Shown piece by piece: positions 8,652 through 14,361 of a stretch of 64,000 nt of DNA. The DNA is taken from contig NZ_JAGHRE010000011.1 of the NCBI RefSeq assembly GCF_017743935.1, forward strand, positions 124,001 to 188,000. Direction: 5' to 3'. The position numbers and the translations under genes are program-made. Below the pieces are notes generated by a model. The model saw nothing but the letters and a program-made list of their open reading frames with translations. It searched no databases and had not been told where the DNA came from. The stretch is from Tropicibacter sp. R16_0 (GTDB taxonomy: Bacteria; Pseudomonadota; Alphaproteobacteria; Rhodobacterales; Rhodobacteraceae). Within the stretch, counting starts at the first letter, position 1, and every line of letters begins with the position of its first letter.

Positions 8652-8948
8652 TTATTCTTGGTGTTTCTTGTGGTGTCGGATGACTTCCTGAATGATGAAA
8701 TTCAGGAAAGCCTTGGCGAAATCAGGGTCCAGATCGGCCTTTTTCGCCAGGTCTTCGAGCCGCTCGATCTGCGCCGCTTCGCGGGCCGGATCGGACGGGG
8801 GAAGGTCGTGCGTTGCTTTCAGTTGCCCAACCGCCTGGGTGTGCTTGAAGCGCTCGCCCAGAGTATAGACGAGGATCGCATCGAGGCGGTCGATGCTGTC
8901 GCGGTGGTCTTTCAGCAGCTCGGCTGCGCGGGTCACGGGATCAGTCAA
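8652..8948 (-). CDS. Chorismate mutase, AroQ class
   Basis: All-helical chorismate mutase of 98 residues that rearranges chorismate to prephenate for Phe and Tyr synthesis. The AroQ pattern is visible: [23 protein letters not shown] (split here by the usual Arg and Asp positions), then [17 protein letters not shown], and a last helix with [15 protein letters not shown]. The best start is TTG at 8948, preceded by AAAGGAT at the right distance. It overlaps the upstream acetyltransferase gene by 8 bases, which suggests translational coupling. rpsP follows after 41 bases containing the palindrome CAGGCGCCTG. Confidence 0.85.
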
Positions 8949-9543
8949 GTGCCCATCCTTTCGGTTTGAACAGCGGATCGGCGTAGTGGCCAATTTCCAT
9001 CTCGATGCCATGTGCCAGCTGCGAGCCATCGAGCTGTGCAGGCGAGGGGTGGCGATAGACCGCGTCGTTGCCGTCGATGGTCTGCGCGCTCTTGTCTTTG
9101 ACCGCGCCCAAACGTTCGGCCAGGCGAATCGAGTCCAGGTTTTTCGGGTCGATGTAGCTGACTGCGCCGTCCCAGCCGAGCTGAGTGTAGAAATAGCGGC
9201 GCGCGGCATCGACCGCCTCAAGCGCATAGCCCTTGCCAGCGGCATCGGGCCAGATCACCCAGGCCAGTTCCTGCTCCGGCCATTTGGCGGGCTTCCAGCC
9301 GCCGGCCATGCCATAGGTCTCGTCCGTTGCCTTGTCATGGATCATCCACATGCCATAGCCGCGGATCTGCCAATGGCCGATTTCGGCGGCATAGAGCATC
9401 CACGATTCATAAGCGTTCAGCGGCCCGCCCATGAAGCGGGCGCGGTAGCTGGTGAACGTCGCCTTGAAGTCCGGATAGTCATCCGGTTCCGGGCCACGCA
9501 GGATCAGGCGTTTTGTTTCCAAGGTGGGAATCGAAACGGTCAT
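8941..9543 (-). CDS. GNAT N-acetyltransferase, third of a tandem trio
   Basis: RimJ/RimL-type acetyltransferase of 200 residues. ETKRLILRGPEPDDY is the N-terminal strand. IGHWQIRGYGMWMI and the acetyl-CoA loop AAGKGYALEAVDAARRY are the core. The last third (SYIDPKNLDSIRLAERLGA) is the usual C-terminal motif B. It carries about 30 extra residues at its C-terminus compared with its two upstream neighbours. It overlaps both flanking genes. The substrate is unknown; it could be a ribosomal protein N-terminus or a small amine. Confidence 0.88.
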   Translation of the reverse strand: MTVSIPTLETKRLILRGPEPDDYPDFKATFTSYRARFMGGPLNAYESWMLYAAEIGHWQIRGYGMWMIHDKATDETYGMAGGWKPAKWPEQELAWVIWPDAAGKGYALEAVDAARRYFYTQLGWDGAVSYIDPKNLDSIRLAERLGAVKDKSAQTIDGNDAVYRHPSPAQLDGSQLAHGIEMEIGHYADPLFKPKGWALD

Positions 9544-10067
9544 TGATCGCCTCCAACCTTTGGGTGGCGCCAGACCTGGCACGTTTTGCCCAACAATTCG
9601 CCCTCGCGCTCGTATGTGGCACCCAGACGGGTGGCCAGCGCCATGGACCGGTCGTTGGCATGGGCGATGTAGCTGATGACGCCATCCAGGCCCTGGTTGC
9701 GCGCGGCAAAGTCGCGGGCGGCATGAGCAGCCTCAAACGCGAACCCTTTGCCTTCGGCCTCGTCCATCACGGTCCATCCCAGTTCGGGCTCGTCCCAACC
9801 GGGGGCAAAGATCATGCCGGTCCAACCAACAAAGGCGTTTGTTGCCTTGTCGGTCAGATGCCAGAGGCCAAAGCCGTTCAGCGTCCAGTGGCCGAGGCGC
9901 CGGACCAGTGATTCCCAGGTTTCCGCAGCCGTTTTGGGGCCACCCACCATATGGCTGCGCGAGGTTTCAAAGAACGCAGTCATACGCGGCAGATCGTCTG
10001 CGTGCGGGGCGCGCAGGATCAGGCGGTCGGTTTCTACCGTGGGGATGTTCGGGTCCAGCGCGGTCAT
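9540..10067 (-). CDS. GNAT N-acetyltransferase, second of a tandem trio
   Basis: RimJ/RimL-type acetyltransferase of 175 residues, clearly a paralogue of its neighbours. It shares VETDRLILRAP, LGHWTLNGFGLW, PELGWTVMDEAEGKGFAFE and SYIAHANDRSMALATRLGA. The acetyl-CoA binding loop is EGKGFA. It begins within the last four bases of the upstream gene and its stop overlaps the next start, so the trio is translated as one unit. Confidence 0.88.
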   Translation of the reverse strand: MTALDPNIPTVETDRLILRAPHADDLPRMTAFFETSRSHMVGGPKTAAETWESLVRRLGHWTLNGFGLWHLTDKATNAFVGWTGMIFAPGWDEPELGWTVMDEAEGKGFAFEAAHAARDFAARNQGLDGVISYIAHANDRSMALATRLGATYEREGELLGKTCQVWRHPKVGGDQ

Positions 10068-10606
10068 GCGTAGGCCTCCACCCCACCAGAGGCGAGATCA
10101 TCAGACGATGGGTGACGCCAGATTTCCAACGCGCCGTGCCGCTCGTGCTCGTAGATGCCTTCGTATGAGGCGCCCATGCGTTTGGCGACATTGCGCGAGC
10201 CGTGGTTTTCAGGGGCGACAAGGCTGATTGCAGTTTTCCAACCCAGCTTGTCATAGGCGTATTCGCGCGATGCCAGCGCAGCCTCGGTCGCGTATCCTTT
10301 GCCTTCGAACCCGTTCATCAGGTCCCAGCCCAATTCGGGCTCGGGCCAGCCGTGGGGAAACCAAGGGCCGATAATGCCGGCAAGTTCGCCTGTTGCGGTT
10401 TCTTCGACCGCCCAACGGCCGAAACCACGCAGCTGCCAGTGGCCCAGTTCGGTGGCCAGCGCGCGCCAGCTTTGTTCGGCCGTCATCGGGCCACCCACAA
10501 ATTTCGACCGTTCCGACGCAAAGAACGCCGCAAAGCTCGCGAAATCGCGGGCTTCCATCGGGCGCAGCGTCAGGCGCGGGGTCGATATGGTGGGGATCTG
10601 GATCAC
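10064..10606 (-). CDS. GNAT N-acetyltransferase, first of a tandem trio
   Basis: RimJ/RimL-type acetyltransferase of 180 residues: STPRLTLRPMEARDFASF, LGHWQLRGFGRWAV, PELGWDLMNGFEGKGYATE and ENHGSRNVAKRMGA. It starts one base after the ffh stop codon, so it is very probably cotranscribed with ffh. The three copies are more alike in the core than in their C-terminal ends, which fits tandem duplication followed by divergence. Confidence 0.88.
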   Translation of the reverse strand: MIQIPTISTPRLTLRPMEARDFASFAAFFASERSKFVGGPMTAEQSWRALATELGHWQLRGFGRWAVEETATGELAGIIGPWFPHGWPEPELGWDLMNGFEGKGYATEAALASREYAYDKLGWKTAISLVAPENHGSRNVAKRMGASYEGIYEHERHGALEIWRHPSSDDLASGGVEAYA

Positions 10607-12429: not shown

Positions 12430-12449
12430 TGTAATGATATAACATTGCA
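12430..12449. promoter_or_regulatory. Putative Zur (zinc uptake regulator) box
   Basis: TGTAATGATATAACATTGCA is a 20-bp imperfect palindrome (16 of 20 positions symmetric) that matches the proteobacterial Zur consensus of the form GTAATGTTATAACATTAC. It ends 68 bases before the DUF1826 start. Under zinc excess Zur would repress the DUF1826-adh operon; under zinc starvation it would be expressed. Confidence 0.75.
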
Positions 12450-12517: not shown

Positions 12518-13171
12518 ATGATGTTGGTGCGGGGGATCGAGAGCGACGCCGAGCGCAGCGTCAGGATTGCCACCTCTCCCGAAGGGTTGGTTGCGATTCA
12601 GAATCCAAGCTGTGCTGCCGCCATTTGGCACCGTGAGCCTTTGGCAAGCTTCCAGGAGTGGATCGATCATGTCCCCGCGCACAAGTTGCCTATGACGCGC
12701 AGCATTCTGCAGCCCGGTGCGGTTCGACGCGCGTTGTACGAGCTGTGTCAGGCCTCGGGTTTGCCGGAGTGTGAACACCGCAATCTATTGGTGGATGATG
12801 TGTCTGCCTTGGCCGCGATGTTTTCCGAGTTGACGCATGCCGAATACCTGAGGCTGCGCCTGGATTTGGTGACCACCAACGCCTGCCGCAAGTTCCACGT
12901 CGATGCTGTCACCACCCGACTTGTGTGCACCTATCGCGGCACCGGTACGCAACATGGGGTCTCGGATGACGGGGATGACCCCGAACGCATTCTTACTGTT
13001 GGCACAGGCTCCCCCATCTTGTTGCGCGGCACGCTGTCGCCAGAGGTGCCCAGATCCGGGCTCTTGCACCGAGCGCCGCCGATCGAGGGGACGGGAGAAA
13101 CCCGTTTGGTGCTGGTTCTGGATCCGGTCACCGCACTGGGTGCCTCAGCTCAACCGCATACGATTCACTAG
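12518..13171 (+). CDS. DUF1826 protein, probable zinc-starvation response
   Basis: Protein of 217 residues of the DUF1826 family. The signature is the central block [18 protein letters not shown] followed by [12 protein letters not shown]. Its conserved Cys, His and Asp could bind metal. The biochemical role of the family is unknown. From memory, members cluster with COG0523 metal-chaperone genes and are predicted Zur targets in many proteobacteria. Here a Zur-like palindrome stands upstream, and a dehydrogenase with an altered zinc site follows 26 bases downstream behind a strong ribosome site (AGGGAGGA). No COG0523 gene is in this window. Confidence 0.85.
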
Positions 13172-13197
13172 AAACCCCAGAATTCAGGGAGGAACAA

Positions 13198-14361
13198 ATG
13201 AAAACACGCGCCGCAATTGCATGGGCCCCGAACCAACCGCTCGAGATCGAAGAGATCGATCTTGAGGGTCCCAAGGATGGAGAGGTTCTTGTCCGCATTG
13301 TGACCACCAGCCTGTGCCACACCGATGTGTTCACCCTGTCAGGCGAAGATCCCGAAGGGTTGTTTCCCTGCATCCTGGGGCACGAAGGCTGCGGCATCGT
13401 CGAAGAGGTTGGCAAGGGCGTCACCTCGGTCAAGCCGGGCGATCACGTGATCCCGCTCTACGTGCCCGAAGACCCGGATTGTCCTTATATCAAGTCCGGT
13501 AAGACCAACCTGTGCCAGACGATCCGCGCCACACAGGGCGCCGGGCTGATGCCAGATGGTACGTCGCGGTTCTCGTACAAGGGCAAGCAGATCTTGCACT
13601 ACATGGGCACCAGCACATTCAGCGAATACACAGTCCTTCCTGAGATTTCGGTTGCCAAGATCTCGAAAGATGCGCCTTTGTCGAAGGCGTCGGTCATGGG
13701 GTGTGCCGTTCCCACGGGGATTGGCGCAGTGCGCAACACCGCAAATGTCGAAGCCGGTGCAACCGTGGCCGTCTTTGGTTTGGGCGCGGTTGGTATGGCG
13801 GTGATTCAGGGTGCGGTCCTGCGCGGGGCATCCCGGATCATCGGGGTGGATGTGAACCCCAACAAGTTCCCGCTTGCCCAATCGCTGGGTGCCACCGAAT
13901 GCGTCAACCCCAACGATCATTCTGCGCCGATACATGATGTGCTGATCGAAATGACCAACGGTGGCCTGGATTATACGTTTGAAGCCGTTGGAAACGTCGG
14001 CCTGATGCGCTCGGCGCTTGAGGCCTGCCATAAGGGGTGGGGCGAATGCACCGTGATCGGCGTTGCGGGCGCGGGGCAAGAGATTTCGACCCGCCCGTTC
14101 CAGCTGGTGACGGGGCGCGTGTGGCGCGGCACCGCCTTTGGCGGCGTTCTGGGACGGAGCCAGCTGCCGGGCATGGTGGATGAATGGATGAACGGGGACT
14201 TCAGCGTTGATCCCTATATCACCCACAACATGCATCACGATCAGATCAACACGGCCTTCGACCTGTTGCACCGGGGGGAGTCGATCCGCTCGGTCATCCA
14301 CTTCCAGCCCGAGGAGACGATGACGGTGAATTCACTGCCAGGGCAGATTGTTACCAAGTGA
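13198..14361 (+). CDS. S-(hydroxymethyl)glutathione dehydrogenase-like class III ADH, altered structural zinc site
   Basis: Class III alcohol dehydrogenase of 387 residues, expected to oxidise S-hydroxymethylglutathione (formaldehyde adduct) with NAD. The catalytic zinc ligands are kept: Cys40 (LCHTD), His62 (GHEGCG) and Cys169 (MGCAVPTG). The Rossmann motif GLGAVG and the family block [20 protein letters not shown] are intact. The structural zinc lobe normally reads C-x2-C-x2-C-x7-C (as in E. coli FrmA). Here it is Asp92, Cys95, Ile98 and Cys106, so two of four ligands are missing. The tail is about 17 residues longer than FrmA. It is cotranscribed with DUF1826 behind a putative Zur box, which suggests a zinc-sparing paralogue. 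Confidence 0.9.

Follow-up and report, generated by a model that had tools for sequence, protein, structure and literature searches.

A class III alcohol dehydrogenase paralogue with a remodelled structural-zinc lobe beside a predicted Zur box: a candidate zinc-sparing isozyme

Zinc economy and the structural lobe of alcohol dehydrogenases

Nine families of Zur-linked enzyme paralogues—PyrC, HemB, DksA, HisI, Cam, CysRS, ThrRS, AmiA and QueD—were described by Haas 2009 (PMC2770081). No alcohol dehydrogenase (ADH) is among the nine, and the word ‘dehydrogenase’ is absent from the main text of that paper. C-minus ribosomal proteins, according to a review, drop zinc altogether and so free a large ribosomal pool (PMC6103462). 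The relevant passage of the review names alcohol dehydrogenase as an example of the zinc-free, Zur-regulated paralogues, with no lobe of the kind considered below and no ADH class specified, and its table places adhA of Corynebacterium and adhP of Neisseria meningitidis in Zur regulons. Paracoccus denitrificans supplies the sites against which we compare our own. Promoter sites shifted by purified Zur in EMSA include GTAATGTAATAACAT and GTAACGATATAACAT, the sites lie 2-50 bp from the start codon, and COG0523 and Ni/dipeptide ABC genes are among those that carry Zur motifs (PMC5387054). Tables 1-5 of this 2017 zinc RNA-seq study list no alcohol dehydrogenase, for a strain that may lack the ADH form described here. 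Among the titles and abstract openings of the literature matches listed, none describes a class III ADH that combines Zur control with a changed lobe.

The four residues of the structural-zinc lobe vary among ADHs. Lobes of the D-C-C-C and E-C-C-C types exist, and in some archaeal enzymes the structural zinc is coordinated by an Asp or Glu in first position; the D-S-M-D and S-S-Y-C lobes belong to xylitol dehydrogenases that are described as without structural zinc (PMC9895041). When structural Cys of human ADHs, those of class III among them, were replaced with Ala, the enzyme was not expressed or had little activity, according to earlier work cited there. In a fission-yeast enzyme, C97D and C103D keep 57% and 65% of kcat/Km, respectively, and some Ser and Asp mutants are active (PMC9895041).

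The gene, its lobe and its clade

The window, which is the whole 64,000-nucleotide stretch of DNA analysed, contains a DUF1826 gene followed on the same strand, after a gap of 26 bp, by an ADH gene (Table 1). The ADH contains Pfam domains PF00107 and PF08240 and scores 638.3 bits against NCBIfam TIGR02818 (S-(hydroxymethyl)glutathione dehydrogenase/class III ADH), for which the curated cut-off is 543.95. By score it is a member of TIGR02818; by its residues it is not a canonical two-zinc ADH. The sequence-only reading had described, at 13462-13518, a class III ADH whose lobe is Asp92, Cys95, Ile98 and Cys106, encoded by GAC, TGT, ATC and TGC, and in which the catalytic ligands Cys40, His62 and Cys169 remain. 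Direct reading of the codons bears this out in full, and the lobe codons fall inside that interval. It had also held that half of the structural site is lost. Two of the four Cys are indeed replaced, but only the change from Cys98 to Ile removes a ligand outright, because Asp or Glu at the first position ligates in some archaeal ADHs (PMC9895041). We refer to the form as ‘D-C-I-C’, and to four-Cys enzymes as ‘canonical’. Elsewhere in the window, at 8941-10606 on the minus strand, three adjacent similar ORFs, acetyltransferase-like on sequence reading, lie in a row as if by tandem triplication.

Table 1. Features of the predicted DUF1826–ADH operon, in window coordinates
Feature	Position	Strand	Details
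Zur box GTAATGATATAACAT	12431..12445	+	72 bp before DUF1826 start codon; 23.5 of max 24.5 bits
DUF1826 protein, 217 aa, first gene of presumed operon	12518..13171	+	PF08856, E 8.9e-52
Ribosome-binding-site-like AGGGAGGA ahead of ADH start	13186..13193	+	sequence reading
Class III alcohol dehydrogenase/S-(hydroxymethyl)glutathione dehydrogenase paralogue, D-C-I-C type	13198..14361	+	387 aa; TIGR02818, PF00107, PF08240
Cys40 (TGC), catalytic zinc ligand	13315..13317	+	present in 131/131 aligned
His62 (CAC)-Glu63 (GAA), catalytic zinc site	13381..13386	+	present in 131/131 aligned
Remodelled structural lobe D92-P93-D-C95-P96-Y-I98-K99-S-G-K-T-N-L-C106	13471..13515	+	codons and alignment columns
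Cys169 (TGT, catalytic ligand), then clade-specific Ala170 and Pro172	13702..13713	+	alignment
Clade-specific C-terminal extension, residues 370-387	14305..14358	+	alignment

Relatives were gathered in a scan of one genome per species, covering 84,980 species, with six peptide patterns, one of which is the lobe itself (EDPDCPYI) and introduces an ascertainment bias. The best 80 of 158 relatives (~80-98% identity) were kept and, with the window copy and one further genome match, form a set of 82 sequences at ~80-100% identity. Among the relatives is a 95% identical copy in Pelagimonas phthalicica DSM 26923. All 82 have the D-C-I-C lobe, and all of 49 canonical comparators, none more than 68% identical to the window ADH, have C-C-C-C. 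Whole-protein searches, which are free of the lobe-pattern bias, covered 394 genomes from the same family and 385 from the class. They yielded 12 distinct matches at 82-100% identity (11 from the family, 1 more from the class), and 12/12 are D-C-I-C. Genomes with such a match number 11/394 in the family and 2/385 in the class, the window's own genome being counted in both. Below 82% there is a gap: the next matches are at 68% identity or less, and those that were read are C-C-C-C. Plasmid records at 80-90% identity number nine, and the three that were read are all D-C-I-C; a scan of viral contigs for relatives of the ADH found none.

Codon use among the 82 copies varies synonymously: GAC 42 and GAT 40 for Asp92; ATC 71, ATT 6 and ATA 5 for Ile98; and TGC 67 and TGT 15 for Cys95, with the same counts for Cys106. 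That the lobe might reflect ordinary drift, or an assembly artefact, in a single ADH copy is vanishingly improbable. Nothing beyond the single window speaks for it, and it is ruled out by conservation in 82/82 sequences from Alphaproteobacteria and Halomonadaceae together with this synonymous variation.

The catalytic site is intact. Cys40, His62, Glu63 and Cys169 are kept in all 131 sequences, the 82 D-C-I-C and the 49 canonical. Aligned to the human class III enzyme, the residues that we take to bind S-hydroxymethylglutathione are, in window numbering, T42, D51, E53, Q107, R110, K279 and R364. Five of these (T42, D51, E53, R110 and K279) occur in 82/82 D-C-I-C copies, R364 in 81 with one gap, and Q107 in 78/82, retention that argues that the reaction is probably unchanged. 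An AlphaFold2 model built from 29 sequences of the group had a mean pLDDT of 42.6, too poor for use.

Around the lobe, and elsewhere, the group differs consistently from canonical enzymes. Pro93 is present in 82/82 D-C-I-C copies, and R or G stands there in 49/49 canonical ones; Pro96 is present in 80/82 versus 1/49, and a basic residue at position 99 in 71/82 versus 11/49. Position 94 is variable (N 41, D 28, E 12, S 1), and Glu91 is invariant in both sets (82/82 and 49/49). Ala170 and Pro172, found in all 82, replace the Gly and Thr of all 49. Further marks of the group are Ser38, Ala197, Met200, His347 and the C-terminal extension, in which tail positions 374, 381 and 382 are gaps in 49/49 canonical copies, most of them 368-371 aa long. 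The two remaining structural Cys, Cys95 and Cys106, have not been lost within the group, but their fixation says little, because 212 of the 387 columns are invariant in the D-C-I-C set.

These columns bear on whether the protein might instead be extra enzyme, induced through Zur and still binding two zinc ions, with Asp92, Cys95 and Cys106—aided by water or Glu91—holding a weaker structural zinc. All four residues are invariant in the 82, acidic ligation has the archaeal precedent, the fission-yeast C97D and C103D enzymes keep much of their activity, and Haas 2009 offered the supply of extra enzyme to explain why HisI, CysRS and ThrRS have paralogues with intact zinc ligands (PMC2770081). Against this, the third ligand position is Ile in 82/82, Pro93 and Pro96 rework the zinc-binding turn, and position 94 is not fixed; nor is Glu91 a new ligand, because every canonical copy shares it. 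We think this reading unlikely, though not negligible. A three-ligand site could form from Asp92, Cys95 and Cys106, but loss of stable zinc binding by the lobe strikes us as appreciably the better bet.

A canonical four-Cys copy lacking a Zur-like box, the presence of which was a check proposed from the sequence alone, is encoded in the same genome. It lies at C32:141538-142653, is 62% identical to the window ADH, and has the lobe CRECEYC...C; the best Zur-matrix site in the 5 kb upstream of it scores 6.1 bits, versus 23.5 for the window box. A canonical partner occurs in 9/10 other D-C-I-C genomes, the exception, G229, having no canonical copy at E 1e-90. Three other genomes searched from the genus carry the canonical copy only.

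A quick tree was made from 62 D-C-I-C and 49 canonical rows, with lobe and tail columns removed and SH-aLRT support in place of bootstraps; to keep it small, 20 of the 82 D-C-I-C sequences were omitted. The 62 fall on one side of a single branch (SH-aLRT 100, stem length 0.52), Halomonadaceae rows appear at three places among the Alphaproteobacteria within the clade, and the host genome's canonical copy groups elsewhere, with the canonical copies of its relatives. Taken together, these placements make the D-C-I-C group an old, separate lineage that appears to move between genomes. The tree rules out that the window ADH arose by recent duplication of the host's canonical gene. Two rows within the clade are titled as other phyla (Planctomycetota and Chloroflexota bins), and close copies L059, L063 and L072 come from contigs titled Phycisphaeraceae and Anaerolineae. 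Over the tree columns, L063 does not differ from L175, whose genome belongs to the same class as the window, and because of this identity we consider mis-binned contigs likelier than transfer between phyla.

Zur-like sites and gene neighbourhoods

The upstream Zur box reported from the window alone is present. It was scored with a matrix made from five published P. denitrificans Zur sites, and in sequence comparison it matches the EMSA-tested Paracoccus sites and is a predicted Zur-binding site; at 72 bp it is farther from the start codon than the 2-50 bp of those sites. The pattern GTNAYRNNATAACAT has four perfect matches in the 5.24 Mb genome, the window box among them. With one mismatch allowed, 17 matches occur, versus 7 for a reversed control pattern, and a permissive search of the window for 13-base palindromes returned 28 hits versus 23.4 expected, which is not above chance. 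Only close matches are therefore meaningful.

Of the other three perfect boxes, one is found at a COG0523-DUF1826 pair and one at an ABC transporter operon (ATPase PF00005), and the third separates a DUF6525 gene from a divergent HTH-cupin gene. At the ABC operon the box falls inside the longest form of the preceding ORF, whose start is uncertain; from its sequence we read this ORF, ahead of the ATPase gene, as a putative solute-binding protein. A one-mismatch box sits in the gap between zur and the likely start of znuA. The COG0523-DUF1826 pair, at L143:3735-5679 (G000:C1 near 109734), is a second Zur-boxed pair in the host genome, here with COG0523 first and then another DUF1826 gene. The box beside DUF6525 is at L142:3545-4496 (G000:C1 near 47852), and its divergent neighbour is an HTH-cupin regulator. 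DUF6525 also adjoins DUF1826 on Paracoccus versutus pTAV3, and because of this neighbour and the perfect box it may be an unrecognised protein of the Zur regulon.

Across the relatives, boxes of at least 16 bits occur up to 5 kb upstream in 50/82 D-C-I-C loci (shuffle expectation 1.75) versus 0/19 canonical loci, and within 300 bp in 26/82 (shuffle expectation 0.35) versus 0/19. At a looser cut of 14 bits over 5 kb, the counts are 58/82 and 1/19. The canonical control, for boxes and for context alike, is a subset of the 49 comparators, namely the 19 for which flanks of up to 5 kb were retrieved, and 10/19 come from genomes that also carry a D-C-I-C copy. In many loci, including those of Leisingera, Paracoccus, Celeribacter and Halomonas, the box is ~40-80 bp before the start of the ADH gene itself; on a stretch of Sagittula plasmid the pattern is nowhere matched perfectly. 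Zur control of the DUF1826–ADH pair, as predicted from these sites, is well supported at the level of sequence.

The proposed check of whether the D-C-I-C form tracks with DUF1826 and Zur boxes also had a positive outcome: it tracks with these, and with COG0523 and zinc transporters, across lineages. COG0523 is present in 37, DUF1826 in 47, ABC-3 permease in 9 and ZnuA in 8 of the 82 loci, and also found are ThrRS (18), HisI (12), Fur (11), CysRS (9), FolE (9) and gamma carbonic anhydrase (4); each of these ten is absent from the 19 canonical loci. HisI, gamma carbonic anhydrase, CysRS and ThrRS are Haas 2009 families (PMC2770081). At least one of COG0523, DUF1826, ABC-3 and ZnuA accompanies 61/82 D-C-I-C genes versus 0/19 canonical genes (Fisher p 8e-10, indicative only). 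The 82 loci include near-identical records, such as L063 and L175, and records from shared sampling campaigns, and the Fisher p overstates their independence. Since flanks end at contig ends in some loci, the counts of genes and boxes are lower bounds. In the retrieved sequence, 71/82 loci show a zinc gene, a box scoring 16 bits or more, or both, and 11/82 show neither.

DUF1826 is directly upstream of the ADH gene in 24/82. In the family sample of 394 genomes, it occurs in 10/11 D-C-I-C genomes versus 60/383 others (Fisher p 1.7e-7), a value that is again only indicative as the genomes are not independent. The one D-C-I-C genome without DUF1826 is G182; in a matching public contig (L042), a 23.5-bit box precedes the ADH gene by 215 bp. 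On P. versutus pTAV3, the D-C-I-C ADH gene lies between COG0523/DUF1826 and aztABCD. On a Gluconobacter sphaericus plasmid it is clustered with a Fur-family gene, DUF1826, FolE, HisI, ZigA and carbonate dehydratase. In five Acetobacteraceae loci (L106, L108-L110 and L139), copies of FolE and HisI form part of a compact zinc-starvation cluster.

A divergent regulator of the GlxA/AraC type (DJ-1/PfpI plus HTH) stands beside the ADH gene in 24/82 loci (L073, L075, L077-L085, L087-L089, L091-L096, L098, L099, L101 and L103), often with a Zur-like box in the gap that the two genes share. It is possibly a second input, for example of a formaldehyde signal.

Might the lobe change serve some other role, in oligomerization, partner binding or substrate, the gene merely hitch-hiking in zinc-homeostasis islands that move together? 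The clade-specific changes beside catalytic Cys169 (Ala170 and Pro172), at Ser38 and in the C-terminal tail could be taken so, as could the GlxA/AraC-type neighbour and the scarcity of S-formylglutathione hydrolase, which is nearby in 3/82 D-C-I-C loci versus 12/19 canonical ones. But hitch-hiking predicts neither boxes immediately before the ADH gene itself, of which the 26 within 300 bp are examples, nor the recurrence of the box–ADH pairing in several different gene orders, and for this reason we rate it as very unlikely.

A zinc-sparing isozyme among known systems

We favour, with some confidence, the interpretation that Zur represses the D-C-I-C ADH gene and that the enzyme is a zinc-sparing isozyme of glutathione-dependent formaldehyde dehydrogenase, in which the catalytic zinc is kept and the structural zinc is dropped or weakened. 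When zinc is plentiful, Zn-Zur bound to the window box would silence the DUF1826–ADH operon, and the canonical two-zinc enzyme would carry out the reaction. When zinc is short, Zur would release the box, and the D-C-I-C isozyme would be made, replacing or supplementing the canonical copy. With its catalytic zinc site and glutathione-substrate residues retained, it is expected to be active. The lobe would be freed of tetra-Cys zinc by the changes of Cys98 to hydrophobic Ile and of Cys92 to Asp. Some compensation must be supposed, because the structural Cys to Ala changes in human class III ADH were reportedly crippling (PMC9895041), and the loop is probably held by Pro93 and Pro96, in many copies together with a basic residue at 99. 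Detoxification would then continue at about half the zinc per subunit. One zinc per D-C-I-C subunit is what we infer, rather than read off, because Asp can ligate structural zinc elsewhere. In a more speculative version, which we judge rather improbable, the lobe is proline-stiffened and Ile-plugged, and the enzyme receives its remaining zinc from the neighbouring COG0523/DUF1826 system, as a dedicated metallochaperone client.

If the interpretation as a zinc-sparing isozyme is true, class III ADH, which detoxifies formaldehyde and nitrosothiols, joins the set of enzymes exchanged by bacteria that run short of zinc, and a half-step economy is shown, in which structural zinc is given up and catalytic zinc is kept. 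A natural clade that seemingly manages this loss in a class III scaffold makes the question of the zinc-less lobe directly testable, and a candidate client is offered for the poorly understood COG0523 and DUF1826 proteins.

With FrmA and human ADH5 (TIGR02818), the D-C-I-C ADH shares its family score, catalytic Cys40, His62, Glu63 and Cys169, and the residues that we presume to bind substrate. It is unlike them in its lobe, in Pro93/Pro96 and Ala170/Pro172, in its C-terminal extension, and in a Zur-type neighbourhood in place of S-formylglutathione hydrolase. Corynebacterium adhA and Neisseria meningitidis adhP resemble it as ADHs in a Zur regulon (PMC6103462). In C. diphtheriae, however, Zur with zinc switches adhA on, which is the reverse of the regulation proposed here (PMC6711530). 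The yeast xylitol dehydrogenases (D-S-M-D and S-S-Y-C) likewise combine catalytic zinc with an altered lobe and a bulky residue at position 3, and the D-S-M-D enzyme shares the Asp at position 1; they are polyol dehydrogenases, and the account of them mentions no regulation by zinc starvation in its pertinent sections (PMC9895041).

The analogy initially drawn was to the C-minus ribosomal proteins. It holds for the Zur-controlled swap of a zinc-binding form, but the D-C-I-C ADH keeps one zinc site, and the PyrC, HemB and DksA paralogues of Haas 2009 are closer analogues. Like the paralogues of that study, the D-C-I-C ADH has a Zur box, clusters with COG0523 and DUF1826, and is a second copy beside a canonical enzyme; as in PyrC, HemB and DksA, its zinc ligands are changed (PMC2770081). 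It differs in belonging to another enzyme family, and in losing ligands of the structural site only, with the catalytic site kept. It differs, too, in distribution: by record titles among the best 80 of 158 relatives, D-C-I-C ADHs are mostly alphaproteobacterial, whereas the paralogue survey of Haas 2009 concerned gamma- and betaproteobacteria (PMC2770081).
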